From Lepisosteus oculatus (taxonomy: Eukaryota > Chordata > Actinopteri > Semionotiformes > Lepisosteidae): a stretch of DNA of 64,000 bases. Positions within the stretch are counted from its first letter, which is position 1; every line of letters begins with the position of its first letter. The position numbers were made by a program, and so were the translations under genes. Below the pieces are notes generated by a model. It was not told the origin of the DNA, searched no databases, and saw only the letters and a list, made by a program, of their open reading frames with translations. The stretch is from NCBI RefSeq assembly GCF_040954835.1, contig NC_090716.1, forward strand, positions 9,750,775-9,814,774. Direction: 5' to 3'. This document shows positions 4,004 to 23,802 of this stretch, one piece after another.

Positions 4004-6480
4004 TGTCAGGATTGCTTTAATTTTTCTACTGTTCTATTTTATGATCTTCTCAGCTCCTGTTTCGTAGATTTTGTAATAGTCTGATACACAAAGAAAGTTC
4101 TACATTGTCTTTTTAACATTATTTATTTAGATTTTATTTTAAAATATTTTTAAGTCCCATAAATGCATTTTGGAACTGTTTTCTTTCAAGGCCCATGATG
4201 AATGTTTAGAGACATTTGTATTCTGGAGAATACATAAAGAAGTACTTTAATAAATCAATTTTGTTCTTTTTTCTCTCTCTACTAATCAGCTCTCCTGGAA
4301 TTTGAAACACAGTTTTCTCAGCACATGACTGCCAGCACTAACATATACAATCTGTGCACAGTTGCTTAATTAGAATTCACACAAACATTCACAAAGCCTG
4401 CAGTCTGCCATCACAGTTCCTCCATTTTTCCATTGCAAATCAGTCCCTTATTTTCTTATCTGCTTGTGGCCATGATGAATTACATATAATAGCAAGTGTC
4501 ATGTTAATGATGTCATCTTCATGCATTGTAGTACATACTGGTTTACTATATATATGGACCACAAAAAAACCAATGGAGCACATTTACAGTATTTATGAAG
4601 TTTATCATGCTGTAACATAGAATTGTAATATTGCTTAAGGTTTCTTATATGAAAAGCTGCTTTGGCTTTTAGCAACAATTTTAAAGACGTTTTTTAAAAT
4701 TAAGCCAGATGTATCACATTCTTGTATTTCCAAGTACAGAAAATTCAAAAAATGTTCCGTAAATGTAACTGGCTTATCAAAGACATTGTGTTTTTATATA
4801 GCAGGATGAAGAAGGCTAGTGGTTATTTTAAACTGCTTTGACTGAGCTCCTGTTACTGCACGAACAGGTTCACAAAGAACCAAAGTTATAATTTTCAATA
4901 TTGATAGAACCGTTTCTACATTCTGTTCGTAGGAAGACTGTGGATAAAAAATATATAAAGCAGAGTTATATCACAGACTGTAACCACACTTTAAAGCTTT
5001 TTTAACAGTTTTGATTTATTTACACCAGCTCTACCTTTCAGCTTAGTGCCTGTATTTTCACATTTGTAGAGAGAGGTATTTACTTCTATATTAGGAGCTG
5101 TATTTCTAGTCCTATTTAAGCAACTATTGGTTTGTATTAGTTTATAAAAGCCACATATAGATGAATTTTTGTGAATGTATTTTGATAACTTGAGATTTAT
5201 AGCACAGATAACACATATGGTGTAATGTTGTTAATATGATTAATTGTTATTGTATCAACCAAAGTGAAAAATTTAAGGTGACTTTCTGAGTATTTTTATG
5301 TGTTCAAATAAATAGAGTTTTGGTGCAGCAGTCATTGAGAGTTAACGTTAGCTTTTTGATCTGGACATAGCTGCCTAAGTTAAAAGTGGACTCTGTTGTT
5401 TGTCTTTAAAGTATGATTAGCTCTTATGCTTGAAATAAAAATCATATTAAGTGCAATTCTGCTTTATTGCGTCTTCATTATTAGAAAGCATTTTGTGATT
5501 AGTAGATTATAAAAATAATTATACTGTAAGATTTCATGTACTACACCTTGCCTCATTTGATATAATGTTTAATAACACCAAAGCACACATTTTAAACACT
5601 GATTCTTTAGGGACAATACATTAAAATAACATCAAGTAAACAGTATACAGGTATCATGTAAATAGGTATAGTTTTCTGAATGATTAATTAAGTTATTTAA
5701 TGATTAAAAAGGAATATTCATTTATTGTTACAAATGTATTTTGGTGGTAACATTAGTCATAGTTATCAATAGGCTACTGAACCTCTCTTACAGTGTCCAT
5801 ACAAAAAAAAAACTAATGACCATCTTCAGACACCATTAATTCCAGCGATGAGCTAACTCTTGCCTTAATGTGTCTATAGCAGTGCATTACAGATAATTTT
5901 CAAGTAACAATGTGTTTTTAATAGAAATAAATCTTAAATTTTTAGAGAAAAATGTCAAGTTTTGAGACCAATAACAGTGTTTCTGCAGGGCTATTATTTG
6001 CAATGCTTTGGAGTGAAATATGCTCAGCCTTCTTTTATTAAATTGCATTGATTAGAGCTTTTGTTGGGTAATGAAAGCTAGCACTGTTACTTTTGACTAA
6101 GGTAGAAGAAGTATTGATAGTCATGAAACACAGACCCATGTAGCAAAGGCACTCTGAGCTCTTCATTCAGCTGCTGAAGAGGCAATCTAGGGGAACACTA
6201 TGAAAGATGCACTAAGGACAGTAATGGACAACAGCATTACAACGTAATTAACCAGAGTGTGGCACAAAAGCAGGTCTAACATTTACAATGCTCCATCATA
6301 TCAAAAATGGACAGGCCCACATGGCTCCTGACAGTAAAAGTACTGGCAACATAACAATACAACAACCAAAAGAAGAAAGGGAAAGGGATAATTATGATGT
6401 ATTGCTTTTTGTGTATCACATATAATATAGACAACTCTATACATTTAGAAATGCTCAATTAATCTAAATTTAGAAACACC
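4004..6480. other. NRIP3 3' UTR and AT-rich intergenic DNA
   Basis: Low-complexity AT-rich sequence with the NRIP3 polyadenylation signals in its first part. No protein homology, splice-supported exon or RNA gene was recognised. A small hairpin-like motif at 4848-4877 recurs near 28.69 kb. Confidence 0.6.
4249..5439 (+). promoter_or_regulatory. Candidate NRIP3 polyadenylation signals
   Basis: Canonical AATAAA hexamers occur at 4249-4254, 5307-5312 and 5434-5439, after the NRIP3 stop codon. If the terminal exon is the spliced form starting near 4289, only the two later signals can serve it. Which is used cannot be decided from sequence. Confidence 0.4.
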
Positions 6481-6489
6481 TCTTTAAGA

Positions 6490-6725
6490 TTAAGAAGCTC
6501 GAGGATGGGATGGGAAGAACTGAATCCCTGCTGCCGGTTTGCCTGATGTTGATTTCCGGAGGTGACACTGACGGTCTGGCCATGGGAGTGGCCAGCTGAT
6601 TTCCCTCTTGTTCCGTGGTCCCGGCTCTGAGTCTCCACAGGCCGACAGGTCCCAGGAAACTCGCTGCCGACTCCAGAGCTGGCAGCACTGAGAACACGAG
6701 CGGACAAGATGAACAGGTCACAGAC
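6490..6725. other. Isolated GC-rich block, unidentified
   Basis: About 235 bp of markedly higher GC, with several CpG sites, inside very AT-rich surroundings. Two overlapping minus-strand frames stay open for 82-93 codons, but neither resembles a known protein and neither has convincing splice sites. It may be an old repeat or a fragment of an unrecognised gene. Confidence 0.35.
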
Positions 6726-12445: not shown

Positions 12446-15370
<2,925 letters not shown>

Positions 15371-16496
15371 AACCTGCTGCTCCCTTTTAACATCATGTCC
15401 TCCATGAAATTGTGACTGGAGAAGTGCGATCACTGTGACTGGGTCTTCCAAACCACTCCAGCTGCTCATAAGCCTCTCCTCCCTGCCCACCTGTCTAGGG
15501 GTTAGCTCTGATGACTGCATCTTCCATCTTGTGTATATTCCTGTAATTCCTATGATTCCTGTAATGTTAAAATGAATAATCTTGATTTTGAGGTCCCGTG
15601 ACAAAAGTACAAGCACAAAATAGAGCAGCCACAAACACAATATTTGAAACTTTTGCCATCACAAAAGGCCAAAAGGCCTTGGACAAAAAAGAAATTGGAC
15701 TGTTCTAGTGGGGCTTAGTGTTTGATAAAAATGTAGAATTGCACATTACTTTTTATTGTTTGCCCAGCACAGACTCGTTGACTCACCAACTCATTCAGCC
15801 ATTCATATTTTGACACATGTGCTGGACGTTCAGTGCCGACTGGAGTAGAGGCATGTCTCACTGATGTTATCACATCACTCAGCCTGCAGAGGCCTGGGAA
15901 ATTGCAGAGGTTGTGGTTTTGCCAGACTCCCGAGAGAGCCTTGGCCAGCTAATCCCAACTCTACCCCTGGCAGCACAGTTGTGCTCCACTGCTTGAGGAA
16001 TCCTGGTTATTGTTGGCTAGTAACATTATCCAGGGTTCAGCTCTATGGGTGTTCTTTTTAATATAGCAAGGACCCACATATAAAAGTGATTGTAAGGATG
16101 TATAATGTAGTTGATCATGATGCGTGTTTGGTATTTTTCTTTGGGTTCATGTGGGAGCCAAATGGTCCTTAAAAAAATGAATGAATAACCTTAGTTACAT
16201 GTATTACACCTGTCTTATGCAGAAATTAATGCATGAACTCTTGCAATTTTAAAAAGATAATGTATAAAACTAATACTGCATTCCTAATACTGATCAAAAT
16301 ATGCAGCATTAAGAATAATTACCAACTATAAATTGTGAAATTTCCATGATGACTGATCTTGCTTTTTCATAGATATTAAAATCCAGTTTGAAAGACTTTT
16401 TTTAAAAAAAACTGAAGAGCAAGCAATTATTTCTGCTTACTCATGCTAATGATGCAGTATCTAAACAATTACACAGGTATAATAAATGTTAGTTCC
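15371..16496 (+). other. TMEM9B 3' UTR region with candidate poly(A) signal
   Basis: Sequence after the TMEM9B stop. The first canonical AATAAA is at 16491-16496, and a variant ATTAAA occurs near 16374. A family A SINE copy lies within it at 15825-16060. Confidence 0.45.
15825..16060 (-). repeat. tRNA-derived SINE copy (family A)
   Basis: Shares 'ttcagtgccgactggagtagaggc', then the cagttgtg/gaatcctgg/ggctagtaac block, with the other family A copies. The tRNA-like head is poorly preserved at the right end. Confidence 0.6.
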
Positions 16497-17258
16497 ATAG
16501 TTATACTTGAGTGTTAATTCTGCTATTATTTTTTCATAGTGATGAATTTCCTTTGCTAAAAACTGATATGAAGGCAGTTTTGGAACAATAGTTGCTGTCT
16601 TATCCAGTTGATTAAACCCCTTTTCTCCTTTGTTTGGACCTGCCTTTTAGTGTCCAGAGTGTTGTATATGATATGACAATCTTTCTTCCTGTTATTTGTC
16701 AGAAGGAAGTTTTTTGATTTCAAGTTTTAAAAAACTATTCAAATCAATAATTCTTCAATATAAATCATATTTAAAAATCAATTTTTGTAACATTAATTGA
16801 GCTTCTAATGAACAATGTACATAGTAAATATATTCACCATTAAGATGTAAGTATTGCCAATTCTTGTTAAAACATGCTTGATGAAAATCGGTTCTCTTCA
16901 AAATAATTTAAAAAAATGTAATTTACCTTGGCACCTAAATGTATAGTGCTTAATGGCAGTCAGAATATAATTGTCTTAATGCTAAAACATACAATGTTTC
17001 TAATCTCTTGTACAATTTGTGTTATAACTTCTGCATTAAAGTTAAATTCCTTATCATGTACAATCCATCTTGAGTGTTTAACTCATTCAGTTGTTTTTGT
17101 AGATATCAATGAATGTAATTATGCATAAGGCAATGCAACAAATTCTGCCACAACACAATTCTGTTCTCATTTTTTAACCATATAATAATTTTGCAGTAAA
17201 TGATGCAGCTTCTAGATTTGTTTTCGTGTACTTACCCAAACTTGTGATTTAATTAATT

Positions 17259-17690
17259 GGATTTCATATAGCACCTTTCATCCCAAAGTGCTTCATGTAT
17301 AGGACTAACATCATCCACCACTGAAGTATTGCACTCACCATCAACCAGCAACTCTGTCACAGAGCACCCGAGGCAGAGAAATGACAAGCTCTGGGTAATC
17401 TTTTAGGGAAGCCGAATCGGACATATACACAGAACATTTTGTAATCGGAACACTTTGCTGTTATTAACGGTCTCAGATCTGAATTTAGACAGGGCGCCAG
17501 GGTTAACACTTCTACACATTATGAACAGGTTTGTGGCCAAACACTCAGCAGGATCCGAATCGGACGGTAATTTGGCAGCAGAGTCCCAAAGCGCCATTCT
17601 GGGCCGTTTTGAAATTATTGTCCAGTGAGGAGAGCGCCACCTACTGATCTGACACCAGTAGCAAGAACCAGTTTTTATCAAAGGTTCCGG
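17259..17690. repeat. Degraded interspersed repeat, same family as 27410-28080
   Basis: Opens with 'tttcatatagcacctttcat' and 'cccaaagtgctt' and later has 'gggttaacacttctac'. This is the layout of a common fish repeat that begins 'tatatagcgcctttcat' and contains 'ggggttaacacccctac'. The segment at 27410-27697 has the same blocks in the same order. I cannot name the family with certainty. No ASCL3-like bHLH sequence was found here or nearby. Confidence 0.55.
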
Positions 17691-17957
17691 TGTCCTAATA
17701 AAATCACAACCAGCCTTGCTAAACTTCCAGGATCGGACAAGATCTAAGTAAAGACGATATCAATATGCTATCATGTATATTATGAAGATTTAAAAACAAA
17801 AACACGGCAAATTACACAATACTAGAAATATTTTAGATAAGCATTTTCTTTAATTATTGGAACGTATTTAAATTATACTATTACTATTTGTGATAATAAT
17901 GTATTCTTTTTAAATGAGATATGTGTTAAATGGGCCACCGTAGGTTATTAGCTAGCA

Positions 17958-17972
17958 ATGGCCCGTAGCAAC
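17958..17972 (+). promoter_or_regulatory. X-box (RFX site) at the C11orf16 promoter
   Basis: ATGGCC-CGT-AGCAAC fits the RFX consensus GTNRCC-N(3)-RGYAAC with one mismatch. It lies at the start of the CpG-enriched 17940-18080 segment, which ends in a donor at 18079|18080. It probably marks the promoter, and the ATG within it is then not a start codon. X-boxes typically drive cilium-related genes. Confidence 0.5.
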
Positions 17973-17974
17973 GT

Positions 17975-18079
17975 TTGTTCGACCCATGGAGACCTGTGTC
18001 AACAAAGAGTCCTGTGTTTCCAGTGCGCTTCGATGCACTTTCCGCACCACAGGAGCCAAACAGGGTCCGGATTCAACAG
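17975..18079 (+). other. Candidate 5' exon of C11orf16-like gene
   Basis: Ends in CAACAG|GTTTGT. The frame in phase with the next exon is open from 17969 to 18079 but has no ATG; it reads PWRPVSTKSPVFPVRF and onward. Either this is 5' UTR, with translation starting at 18492, or coding sequence begins in a still earlier exon. Confidence 0.4.
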
Positions 18080-18491
18080 GTTTGTCATAATGCGATCATG
18101 CGATATGAAATATTGTGTATTTTAATGGATTATCAAAGGGGAAATATGTTATCTTGCCCTGAAAAATTCACGCTGAGACACCTTTCTTTTGTTGTTGACA
18201 GCGTTAAAAGCGGTGCAGGTGGACATTAAGTTTCTATGGTTTCCTCTGCCGCTCGTAGTGTAGTAAGGTCGCAATGAACACGACGCCAGTGAATATTGTT
18301 AGACTAAAAGCGACTTAGGTTGATAAAGATGCTGTCTTCTTCAGGCTGATTGACTCTTGAACACTTACCCGTTCTTGTAAAACTTACTCTGCATTTTGGG
18401 TCCACTACTTCCGTGAGAAAATAAATGTGTAGATTTTAAATGTTCCCTTCGATTCTGCTGTTTTTAGGGGCTGCTCAGTGCGAAGACGGAA

Positions 18492-21400
18492 ATGCCTGTG
18501 ATCAACCCGTTAGCTCACTCCCTGGGCTCTCTTCCCCTGTTCGGGGAGATTAGAGACCGAAATATCACGTTTGTCATTGACACCTCTGACAGCATGTACA
18601 CCTGTCTTGAGATGGTGAAACATCATCTCATTGAGGCACTGCTGGCTAAATCTCGGGCCGGAGACTCTCTGTTCAACGTCGTGGAGTTCTCATATAAGGT
18701 ATTCCAAATGATTCTTTTAACCTTTATTTTTTTTACACATAACCTGAGTTTTTATTCCACCACAATTCTTGAAAAGAACCGCATGAAGAAACGATACAAT
18801 GTCTTTATAATGACTAAACTTAAGTCAGTTCATGTAACGTTGATGCTCACGTACTGACTCTTTCGTTTGCGTCTTCGTCTGCACACCAGGTATGTTGTGC
18901 ATTTTGGTAAGACTGATTATATGTGTAAGCTTGTGTCAGTTTCTGTCAGGGCGGTGACACAAATTGTATGTTCACGTGTACTCTTGTTCACAAACAGGTT
19001 ACAAAATGGTGTGACCGAATGGTGACCTGCTCTCCCAACACTGTCTATGGGGCCCTGGACTGGATCCGTTCTCTGTGCTGTAAACCCGGTAGAGATCTAC
19101 TTGGTGCTCTGATAGCTGCCTTTGATGACCTAGCTTGCCAAGCTGTCTATCTGGTAACAAATGGCTTCCCCCACACAAAAGCGCAAGAGGTTTTGCAAGT
19201 GGTGTCGCGCGTATCGCGGGAGCGCCCTGTTCATGTTTTCTATGTGGCTGACAAGTGGACGGACAGCGAAGAGCTGAGGTTTCTCCAGAAGCTTGCTCAG
19301 TGCACTAGAGGGAGCTGTCACCTCATCGTTCTCGGTGCTGCCGACGTGAAACAGGTAATCACGCAGAATGTGCTAAGCAAAGCATTTCACTTTCTTTTCC
19401 ACCTCGGAGAAAGTCCTAGCCTGTAAGGCACAGCTGCATTGTTACTTTAAAAAATGGTAAGTGTATCTGTAATAAATATGCAAAAGAACTAAAATTACGC
19501 TTCTTTAGTTTTTCATGCTTAACTCTAGCTTAGTCGAAAATATTATTGCCACTCTTGTGACAGCAATGATGGGCATGTGCTGTTAATATAAGCTTAATGT
19601 AATGATCAGTTATCATGTTTTCTATATACAGTACAGCTGGAATAGGGAAGGGTTTCTGAATATAACTTGTGCATCCATTTTCTAACTGCTTCATCCAATT
19701 CAGGGTCAGGGGGGAGCTGGACCTTATCCTGGCAAGCATCAAGCACAAGGCAGGATACGCCTGGATGGGACACCAGACAATTGCAGAACAGACACACACA
19801 GTCACACCAGGGGCACTTTTCCCATGTCTATGGACTATGGGAGGACTCAAGAGCGCTTAGGCAAAACCCATGTAGACATTAACTAACACTACCACTAGAT
19901 GAAATATTATCAATGTCACTCAAAATCATTTTTTGTTCTAAGCATAACGAATAAGAGCCGTTTATGCAGTGAGTAGATAGTCTATCTGTATATCTTAAAT
20001 CAAACTAATGGAGTAATAGAACTGATACCTGCTGTGATTTGCTTGTATTCACTTTTGCTTAATTTGTCTCATTTGTAACTGTAACCTCATCCATAGGTGG
20101 TTCCAGTTTACAAAACAGAATGCTGGACTACTGGGCCGTTCTACTGGGATGTGAAATACTGCAGTGCAGGGACGAATCTGGACAGACCTGTAACAGCTGT
20201 GACGGATTTATCCTTGTGCGCCTCCCCCCTGGGACACACTCACTGCTGTCACCCAGCTGTCACAGTACCTGCGAGGTACATATTTGTTCACGCCTATCTG
20301 ATTATTTACTGTCATTATTCACTGTATACGTTTGTATTTCAGGGTACTTTTTATTTTCAACTCATCCCGCCCAATTCGTTTTTTTATTTGCCTTTTCTCT
20401 CCCGTTTGGAATGGCCAGCTAAGACTTTAAGACAGTGCAGGCCGTGCCCCAAAAGGACCTACCCTGAAGTTAACATGGAGCTCCGTTACGAAGGTCCTCC
20501 GATTTGGGAACTTCAGCCACAAAGCCACTTTATAGTTCACAATACGTGTATTGTTTTCATCAATGTTAAGAACCGTCAGCCCAAATCAATCAAAAATGTT
20601 ATGGTCACAGGTTGTGTACAAAATGAAAGTGCGTACGTTAAAGTCATGTCCCTGAATATTTTTCATTGCAGGCACAATTTGGTCAGTTTGGTTCCCACGT
20701 GTCCCCTTAGCACCTGTGAGATCGCTGAAATGCTGGAGTCACCCCTGGGCTCCTCTCTGTTAACAGTAGGCACTCGTGTCTTAGCAAGAAGAGAGCCGGA
20801 TGGGTATTACTATCTTGGGAGCATTAAACAAGAAGTTGAGGTAGATTGGGACCAGATTCTGATTAATCTTTTAGTGCTGAGGACTCATTTTTCTCAGTGA
20901 TTCTGTTAATTGTATTGTGCATGTTTTATTTATTAAAACATTCTTAAAACTGAATGCTTAAACTTAAACAGTGCCATGTTTGAACTGTCTCTAGAGAAGA
21001 AGGGGGATATTCCTGGTTAATTTTGATAAACCAGCTCTCATCGGTGGAAAGTATCAGACGTCAGTGCAAAAGACCAGCATAATGGATGTTTTACACTACA
21101 CAGAGGCTCTCCGACACAGTGTTGTGCCAGGGGATAAGGTTCTGGCACCATGGGAGACAGATCTGGTGAGATACGGGCCTGGAAGTGTACTCTCTGGAGT
21201 TGAGATAAGGGACCCACTAAGTGGTATGTAATCTCATTTTCTTTTCTCAAGTCAATCAAAATTCTGATTTAATGAAATTCTGTGGCTATGAAATTCATTT
21301 GGAAATCTTCTGCAAAATTGTTTAGTTCTGTTCTGGGTTGTGTCCTGCTCCTGATGGGCAATGAAATGAAAGTGTTCATTGTGCTCATCAATTTGCATTT

Positions 21401-23233
21401 TATATCTGTGCCAACAAAATAGTCTATCACATCCCAAAGCTGATTAAGATATGAAATTAGTCAATGTGCTCTTGCGTCTAAGCTTTTCAGTTTTAATTTT
21501 TATTTCCTTTTTATTCCAGCCAAAGATGGAGAGGAGATCAGAGTATCCTTCTGGAATGGAAAAGAAGCTAAAGTGCCAAGAGGAGTAGCTGTGTGGATCT
21601 CACCACCTTTATATGAGCAAATCGTAAAGGAGATTCACCAGCCCCTCACTGCAAGAGGAGCCCTTGTACAAAATGAATCGATTTGGCCAGAAATATGTGC
21701 TTGCAGATCTGTACCGCTCCCCTTGTGTCATCGCTCTTTGTGTAAGTGCCACAGTATGTCCTCTCCATATTGCTCTTATTACAGTCCCTGGAGAAGCACC
21801 TGCTGTGTTCCAGCCCACCATTTAGGCAGCTGTCTTCACAAATTGCACACGTGGTGGCCTTTAACGACGGGGAACCCACACTACACGAGAGACCCCCGGA
21901 ATGAAGATCTGGATAAAAAGATTAACCTGCAGCTTCAAGAGCTCCGGGAGTCCAACAGGCCCCTTTCTGTCTCTTCCTCTTCGCTGTCAGAAGAGAAAAA
22001 CTCTGATTCGGAGGGAGAAGCAGAGCCCACCAGTAAAACAGCAGTACGTGTTAGTATTGACCGGGCAGTCAACACAGACTCCAGTCTCTTTAACAGGCCA
22101 AGATCAACGTCTCCAGACAGACCAGCCTGGAAGTACTGGAGGAGAAGCCACCCTGAGCCACTGCATAAGACACCAGGTATTAGTGTACAGCAACATGAAT
22201 GTGAATGAGGTTATGTGAGCTAAAAGCTTTATTCTTTTGCTTTTGCAGTGTAAAGGTACAATTATTTTACTTAATAGTGTTCATATCCTTAATGTAGGAA
22301 CAACGTTTTTAGCAGATAAGAAAAGTTCAGATGGGAATTTAAAAAGCTCATACTCCATTTTACCCAATATTCCAAAACTGCTGTCTGGAAATTACATTTC
22401 CAAGAGTCAGCAACAGTCATTGCTTTCTTTTTACTTATGTGTACAGTGTGTAATTACTATTTTTTAGCTTTTTGCTTCTTAATTTGTACTTTTAGAGTAC
22501 ATTTATAACCTCAAAAACTCATAAAAGATTAGAACCCTGCCCCATCCTGTTAAAATTATTTTACTTAATTATGAGCAAGAGATTTTCCCACTGAATTCCC
22601 TCGTAAATTATTTTACTCATGTAGTCAGATATACAACAGGTTCGATCTCCCTTATACCAGTACTAAAACTGAGAATGAAGTAACAGTCACTGTGAATATA
22701 TATCTAATGCTTGTTTTTTGATGGTACTCAGGGAACCAAGTCAGGAGTGTAGGGAAATGCACTTTTAGTTCAGCAGACGTGAACTCTCCAGAGTTTTGCT
22801 TTGCTGGTCCAACCAATCGCAGCGCAATGTTTGAAACAATTCCATATTCTTCAAGAAGAAGTATTGGCATGAAGGATGTGTTAGCCCAGCATGATATCCA
22901 ACCTCCACTCAGGGTAATTTTATAAGTCGTGGCTTTTTAAAAAAATATACCTGTAAGCTTCATAGTAGTTTGTTAACAATTTTGGTGCATTCTGTTACCT
23001 GCAGTAAATTTGTCTACTTAAAATGAGTAGTATTTGCAAAAATATTGTCCTTAAGTGTCAATGGATATATTTGAGTTATGTATATCTGGCTTTTTATTTT
23101 TAGAAATACAGAACTGGATAGAATTTACCAATTTGCCCTTTTTTTACAGGAAAGTACTTGTGAAAAGCATTTGAAAACAAAGGTGATGAGAAGTTACCTG
23201 ACAAGGCAAGCAGAGAAACGGAGAGCAAAGTGA
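18492..23233 (+). CDS. C11orf16: C11orf16 orthologue: VWA plus DUF4537 protein
   Basis: Exons 18468-18698 (ATG at 18492), 18998-19354, 20097-20275, 20672-20840, 20995-21223, 21520-22176, 22732-22913 and 23150-23233 join in phase to about 687 residues. Residues 17-188 form a von Willebrand A domain like those of VWA3A/VWA3B: FVIDTSDSMY gives a D-x-S-x-S MIDAS at 30-34. The later MIDAS parts look degenerate (GRDLLGAL at 100-107, and VTNG at 123-125 instead of VTDG). Residues about 280-425 are the DUF4537 region: VLARREPDGYYYLGSIK, then PGDKVLAPWE and YGPGSVLSGVEIRDP, then VSFWNGKEAKVPRG. These align with human C11orf16 (VLARREADGFYYRAQIK, PGDKVLALWE, VHFWNGKAAKVP). A Cys-rich stretch, a Ser/Glu linker and RAVNTDSSLF/PAWKYWRRS follow, again as in human. 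Function is unknown; a ciliary role is inferred only from VWA3-type kinship and the X-box. The start and the segment 20276-20671 are the uncertain parts. Confidence 0.88.
19660..19875 (-). repeat. L2-type fish retroposon copy
   Basis: On the plus strand it starts 'ccattttctaactgcttcatcc' and includes 'ggatgggacaccag'. This is the reverse of the standard fish L2-type 3' region (GTCCCATCC, then AGGCTCC, then a GGATGG-like tail). It lies in the intron between the VWA exon and the next exon of the C11orf16-like gene. Confidence 0.7.
20276..20671 (+). other. Stop-free, in-phase putative intron of C11orf16-like gene
   Basis: The donor GCGAG|GTACAT and the acceptor TTTTCATTGCAG bound 396 nt, exactly 132 codons, with no stop in the gene's frame. 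Most of it is T-rich and encodes a hydrophobic run, as expected of an intron. The middle (about 20432-20530, CPKRTYPEVNMELRYEGPP) looks more protein-like. It could be an intron, a retained coding intron, or contain a short exon. Confidence 0.5.
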
Positions 23234-23723: not shown

Positions 23724-23802
23724 AATAAAGGAATAATAATATGTTCATTTTTGTACCACTGTGGTGGCCTTGAAAAGATTAAATGAGCACTTTTGAATAA
23801 AT
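23724..23802 (+). promoter_or_regulatory. C11orf16-like polyadenylation signals
   Basis: AATAAA occurs at 23724-23729 and 23797-23802, about 500-570 nt after the stop codon at 23231-23233. The transcript would end before the AKIP1 terminal exon on the other strand. Confidence 0.55.

Follow-up and report, generated by a model that had tools for sequence, protein, structure and literature searches.

A predicted C11orf16 ortholog with an N-terminal VWA domain, a DUF4537 module, and apparent kinship to VWA3A and VWA3B

Human C11orf16, which we take to have no VWA domain, appears to have an ortholog in the stretch of DNA analyzed here (64,000 nucleotides, C21:9750775-9814774; hereafter the window), where two exons coding for a VWA domain lie directly upstream of C11orf16-like exons. 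Do these exons form one gene, to which VWA genes is it related, and is the human protein a shortened relative? The reading that we favor, with a probability of roughly 0.88, is an intact C11orf16 ortholog that keeps an ancestral-looking VWA3 architecture, was born together with a paralog on contig C7 by duplication of a block including a DENND2-type gene, and has an altered metal site. The host genome searched comprises 1.2 Gb in 813 contigs.

The gene model, predicted from genomic sequence, has eight exons on the + strand (18492-23233), with GT-AG at every junction and junction phases of 0, 0, 2, 0, 1, 1, and 0, in order. The product is stop-free and 687 residues long. The exons and one neighboring gene are as follows.

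13303..15370, + strand: exon pieces of the TMEM9B neighbor, upstream on the same strand, assigned by Tmemb_9 and similarity to human TMEM9B
18492..18698, + strand: coding exon 1, residues 1-69, with the start Met, an LFG motif, the first VWA strand, and MIDAS-type DTSDS; borders ATG to AAG/GTATTC, with an upstream in-frame TAG at 18465
18998..19354, + strand: coding exon 2, residues 70-188, remainder of the VWA domain; borders CAG/GTTACA to CAG/GTAATC
20097..20275, + strand: coding exon 3, residues 189-247, linker with TTGPFYWDVKYCSAGTNL; the human protein begins to align here
20672..20840, + strand: coding exon 4, opening part of DUF4537 with its first Tudor-like unit
20995..21223, + strand: coding exon 5, DUF4537, 229 nt
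21520..22176, + strand: coding exon 6, end of DUF4537 and a Cys-/Ser-rich tail
22732..22913, + strand: coding exon 7
23150..23233, + strand: coding exon 8 with the stop codon; AATAAA at 23724 and 23796

Pfam models matched the full protein at residues 24-177 (VWA_3; 38.5 bits, E 1.5e-9, cutoff of 27) and at residues 281-418 (DUF4537; 91.9 bits, E 3.9e-26, above cutoff). Exons 1 and 2 together reached 42.6 bits for VWA_3, while each fell below cutoff when tested singly (22.7 bits for exon 2; only VWA_2, at 16.8 bits, for exon 1). Phase 0 applies to junctions 1/2 and 2/3 alike, and the initial annotation was right that two phase-matched exons encode a VWA domain. The coding nature of these exons was gauged against overlapping, + strand chance windows from nearby noncoding sequence. 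The 119-codon open frame of exon 2 had no stop-free equivalent of the same length (0/21386), and its codon score was reached by 12/21386 chance windows. Exon 1 is less striking (568/21686 stop-free; 109/21686 reaching its codon score). A structure model of exon 2 alone had a mean pLDDT of 51.2 and was left out of the fold search.

Identification of the window gene as C11orf16 is supported by alignment and by gene neighborhood. Residues 199-608 align with a provisional sequence of human C11orf16 at E 3e-41, and the motifs WWPL, AVNTD, and W(K/R)YW in the exon 6 tail are common to the two proteins. TMEM9B adjoins the window gene on the same strand (Tmemb_9, 38.4 bits for one piece in Pfam), and TMEM9B is a neighbor of C11orf16 in the human gene order as well. 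Human ASCL3 presumably lies between these two genes; the corresponding stretch here is 15400-18400, and a search of the window for ASCL-type bHLH frames gave none (best E 0.12). PANTHER appears to place C11orf16 in a VWFA-named family, in which case a link between C11orf16 and VWA would be partly known to automatic annotation. Among the literature titles and abstract openings listed, which came from openly available papers, none linked C11orf16 to VWA3 or gave it a VWA domain. In the portion of one paper that was available, C11orf16 is named among proteins with domains assigned by fold matching, with details absent there (PMC8986115).

The human protein, which we take to be 467 residues long with its own start Met inside the exon 3 region, matches window residues 199-608 and has no counterpart to residues 1-198, which hold the VWA domain. 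We consider it unlikely that VWA exons persist in C11orf16 of humans or other tetrapods, whether unannotated or confined to a different isoform, with no loss having occurred. The provisional human sequence and a search that covered the host genome leave room for such exons; the separate start Met of the human protein argues against them, as does, weakly, the entry of goat C11orf16 as "DUF4537 domain-containing protein," a name without VWA, in the accessible part of its source (PMC9281040). We prefer loss of the domain. The C7 gene and, by position, VWA3B (both described below) likewise place VWA ahead of DUF4537, an order therefore likelier to be the older one and seemingly ancestral to the VWA3 family. 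Given such an ancestor, a human protein without VWA would represent a loss, presumably in mammals, and human C11orf16 is probably a VWA3 family member in shortened form.

The paralog lies on the minus strand of contig C7 (6458218-6464356), between an ADCK2-like gene and NDUFB2, and is an apparently intact VWA and DUF4537 gene. Counterparts of window exons 1, 2, 4, 5, and 6 occur in the same order, and exon 3 has a candidate. The joined pieces scored 28.2 bits for VWA_3 and 88.9 bits for DUF4537 (Pfam). Intron phases, read from splice sites, equal those of the window gene (0 for exon 1 out/exon 2 in, 0 for exon 2 out, 2 for exon 4 in, 0 for 4/5, and 1 for 5/6). The two VWA exons are split at the same place and phase in both genes, the counterpart of exon 5 (6471-6699 in gene orientation) has the same length of 229 nt, and the first MIDAS Asp stands at residue 30 or 31 in both proteins. 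Overall, 142/360 aligned residues are identical when window exon 6 is represented by its first 75 residues (29/69 in exon 1, 37/111 in exon 2, 19/47 in exon 4, 35/76 in exon 5, and 22/57 in the first part of exon 6).

Each copy also has a DENND2-type gene downstream on its own strand, at ∼67 kb from the window gene (C21:9840900-9849419) and ∼80 kb from the C7 gene (C7:6374114-6377802). There are 39 DENN matches in the host genome, and C21 has two more DENN loci, at 9.46 and 9.67 Mb, which are of other types or outside the comparison. In one DENN exon, the C21 and C7 copies are alike at 48/60 residues, compared with 45/60 for a C5 copy and 27/60 for another copy; the frames of 4/10 pieces in this comparison were picked by eye. 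The names ADCK2, DENND2, and TMEM9 are likewise provisional, with ADCK2 placed on the flank of the C7 gene by eye and with Pfam support for the TMEM9 family and for NDUFB2 (NADH_B2). We take the human counterparts DENND2A, ADCK2, and NDUFB2 to lie together at 7q34 and DENND2B to lie near C11orf16 at 11p15.4; we know of no human counterpart of the C7 gene, if one exists. Two blocks with conserved order suggest early vertebrate duplications. Most likely, the C21 and C7 copies stem from the early vertebrate whole-genome duplications, in a block that included the DENND2-type gene, the age being one that we infer. A later, lineage-specific duplication is quite improbable. It would be compatible with a comparison that rests on one genome and with the neighborhood of TMEM9, for which the host genome search gave matches on C21 and C5 and none on C7, so that this neighbor lends the block duplication no support. 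The low identity of the window and C7 proteins (142/360) argues against it, as do the separate DENND2-type neighbors at similar distance and orientation, alike at 48/60 residues in one exon. An early block duplication thus remains our preferred origin of the pair.

The initial annotation had likened the VWA domain to those of VWA3A and VWA3B, and this likeness was borne out: after its own paralog, the window domain scored best with these two among the same-genome VWA domains compared, which cover part of the host genome's VWA genes. Locus names in this comparison (VWA3A, VWA3B, VWA5, ITIH, CACNA2D, PARP4, and matrilin-like) are provisional assignments, in part made by eye. The window VWA scored 77 bits with the C7 gene, 64 with VWA3B, and 56 with VWA3A, against 21, 17, and 13 with three ITIH genes, 11 with one VWA5 gene, and 7.7 for the best shuffled decoy. 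With the VWA3B domain as the query, 14 candidates were scored and 8 matched at E 10 or better, all of them within four genes, namely, 3 in VWA3B itself, 3 in VWA3A, and single matches in the window gene (E 0.046) and its C7 paralog (E 1.65). At full length, the C7 domain gives a less clear picture (62.8 bits with VWA3B, 37.3 with VWA3A, and 35.8 with one ITIH). Profile comparison of the C11orf16 pair gave 99.7% over 160 columns with VWA3A/B and 97.6% over 110 columns with ITIH, for which 2/3 rows are partial. In the Pfam VWA_3 family search of the host genome (18 matches, 19 candidates scored), the C7 paralog and the C19 gene were both absent from the list; further VWA3-type members could thus be missed by it.

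The gene on C15 that we take for VWA3B has a complete VWA domain (65.7 bits with VWA_3 for the joined exons; Pfam) and, lying 15 to 41 kb further downstream and equally oriented, three copies of DUF4537 (63.9, 100.1, and 53.2 bits). These exons presumably form one gene. VWA3B thus resembles the window gene in having VWA_3 with DUF4537 downstream and provides its closest VWA after the C7 paralog; it differs in its three DUF4537 copies, its complete MIDAS (DTSES, GGSTNT, and TDG), and, by eye, its exon boundaries within the VWA domain. A long triplet run, coding for poly-Q, poly-N, or poly-T depending on the frame, directly follows the first VWA exon of VWA3B (C15:23093457-23093570). The gene on C19 that we take for VWA3A has a VWA of the window-gene type and differs in having two VWA domains, one read fully (40.4 bits) and the first in part, and no DUF4537 match on C19 among the 12 listed in the host genome.

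Full-length VWA trees were built from 10 sequences, i.e., the window gene, C15:23.09 Mb, C13 (two exons), C4:66.2 Mb, C2 (two), C7:43.1 Mb, C10:41.79 Mb, C28:0.47 Mb, C7:6.46 Mb, and the C19 gene; some rows are partial, with provisional exon joins. Loci left out were C28:10.57 Mb (two), both on C26, C7:7.8 Mb, C4:63.8 Mb, C15:31.6 Mb, and C10:41.83 Mb, and the first VWA of VWA3A was kept out because it was seen only in part. The four VWA3-type genes grouped together in 6/6 full-length runs (SH-aLRT of 92 to 97; UFBoot of 84 to 97). The ITIH alternative had a p-AU of 0.02 to 0.10 in these runs and was rejected at 0.05 in just 3/6. On a trimmed core of ∼105 residues, the tree was unresolved, with ITIH plus the C11orf16 pair likeliest (p-AU of 0.744 versus 0.322 for the VWA3 clade); here, the C7 domain scored 37.1 bits with one ITIH versus 35.4 with VWA3B, and VWA3A scored 31.8 bits with one ITIH versus 29.1 with C11orf16. 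Because the full-length trees group the four genes and the trimmed core does not, much of the VWA3 signal appears to come from the domain ends, that is, LF(G/E) before the first strand, a stretch common to all four VWA3-type genes, and a final L..(L/I)(A/S)..T(G/R)G.

ITIH proteins have a related kind of VWA, and ITIH1 is the best PDB match of the window VWA part (E 0.0025). An independent acquisition of the C11orf16 VWA from an ITIH-like gene, with no kinship to VWA3, is nonetheless very unlikely. Such an origin would fit the slight preference of the core-only tree and a C7 domain that scores almost equally with one ITIH and with VWA3A, whereas the lower full-domain scores of ITIH to C11orf16, the full-length trees, the LF(G/E) stretch, and the DUF4537 module common to C11orf16 and VWA3B all favor VWA3 kinship.

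DUF4537 exceeded the cutoff only on C21, C7, and C15 (12 matches, 12 scored in the host genome), and two other matches, on C2 and C5, fell below it (E 0.95 and 6). The DUF4537 regions of C11orf16 and the C7 gene compare at 119 bits. Either one scored 9.8 to 18.0 bits with repeats 1 and 2 of VWA3B, where the best shuffled decoys reached 6.8 to 9.6, and repeat 3 was at decoy level. Of the agreement between VWA and DUF4537 phylogenies that had been proposed as a check, the VWA part was thus obtained at full length and failed on the trimmed core, and DUF4537 gave no conflict, being too weak to decide. The best PDB matches of the window DUF4537 were the Tudor domains of PHF19, PHF1, and 53BP1, all weak (E 0.03 and above), and repeat 2 of VWA3B passed Tudor_3 in Pfam (29.2 bits; cutoff of 25.8). 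DUF4537 therefore looks like tandem Tudor units.

The window gene thus shares with the VWA3 family a VWA_3-type domain, a full-length VWA closer to VWA3A/B, and a DUF4537 module behind it. VWA3B-like exon boundaries and a complete MIDAS are lacking, neither of which we take as defining, the boundaries because intron positions can change. The earlier proposal of a third VWA3 member is supported in placing C11orf16 with VWA3A and VWA3B; it is not simply the third, as the C7 paralog makes a fourth.

Read directly from the two loci, VWA precedes DUF4537 with matching phases in both the window and C7 genes. Exon 3 of the window gene (20097-20275; residues 189-247) has no in-frame ATG; the Met residues of the model stand at positions 1, 35, 41, 77, 268, 334, 460, 632, 646, and 673. 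Since the human alignment starts at residue 199, translation must reach the exon 3 frame through coding sequence in an exon further upstream. The claim that the VWA exons are joined directly to the C11orf16-like exon thus stands, as far as splice sites and reading frames can tell, on a consensus phase 0 junction 2/3, an ATG-less exon 3, and the same order in the C7 paralog, and we regard the VWA and DUF4537 exons as confirmed to be one predicted gene. That the VWA exons are a separate small gene beside C11orf16, unspliced to exon 3, is scarcely credible: an AATAAA within intron 2 (19471) and a frame that stays open past the end of exon 2 could yield a short VWA-only product, but the ATG-less exon 3, the phase-matched junction 2/3 with consensus splice sites, and the occurrence of VWA upstream of DUF4537 in the C7 copy and, by position, in VWA3B speak against it. 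The same AATAAA and open read-through could also permit a short VWA-only product of the window gene itself.

The window VWA keeps DTSDS, the Asp and Ser residues of the MIDAS. The position of the MIDAS Thr is occupied by Arg (Arg101), as it is in the C7 copy, and TDG reads TNG (Asn124) in the window copy only. The Arg common to both points to a metal-site change that predates the split of the copies. Because the MIDAS Thr is lost in both copies and the TDG Asp in the window copy, the window VWA probably binds partners without the usual metal site.

Under the favored reading, an ancestral-type gene in which an N-terminal VWA domain stood ahead of a DUF4537 module like tandem Tudor units would have been duplicated in a block including a DENND2-type gene, yielding C11orf16 on C21 and its paralog on C7; the VWA would have lost the canonical metal-site Thr (Arg in both copies) and, in the window copy alone, the TDG Asp. 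We lean, by a little more than even odds, toward a fuller history in which the gene before duplication stood beside DENND2 with VWA, tandem Tudor units, and the metal-site Thr already lost. Both copies would persist here, while mammals would have lost one and removed the VWA from the other, so that C11orf16 would look like an orphan Tudor-like protein although it belongs to a motile-cilia family. The uncharacterized human C11orf16 could thereby be assigned to a family with an ancestral architecture and to a site of action open to testing, and it would be a clear case of a protein whose kinship is hidden because its most recognizable domain was lost.

As for function, the domain content makes a protein-binding adaptor the likeliest role. 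That C11orf16 plays this role in motile cilia or sperm flagella is a tentative suggestion, somewhat less likely than not; it comes only from kinship with VWA3A and VWA3B, which are reported there. If C11orf16 is indeed a cut-down relative of these proteins, ciliated cells and sperm would be the places to look. In the parts of the sources available, VWA3A belongs to a human motile-cilia signature, with in situ staining in chicken choroid plexus not apparent for it (PMC7331728); detection of VWA3B is described for respiratory cilia of wild-type humans (PMC12310455); and several candidates at a locus for bull fertility include a nonsense variant of VWA3A (PMC8010996). C11orf16 is absent from the main text of PMC7331728 and PMC12310455, and the portions of the literature searched contained no link between C11orf16 and cilia. 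Against the ciliary reading, C11orf16 has a positive weight and FOXJ1 a negative one in an ovarian cancer profile, as given in the accessible part of that report (PMC2837379). A one-mismatch RFX X-box lies at 17958-17972, ∼530 bases upstream of the start codon; it is weak evidence because 19 such one-mismatch sites occur in the window on both strands.

Wider scans of the window and its protein added little. No relative of the window protein was found in viral contigs, and 6 pattern matches in bacterial and archaeal genome contigs yielded 0 confirmed. NCBIfam returned only a sortase-target VWA, far below cutoff, for the window protein, and neither Rfam nor tRNA scanning of the window gave a match. 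Near the start of the window, at 168-695, there is a perfect tandem duplication of 264 bases, whose two copies are 100% identical and which is either very recent or a product of assembly.
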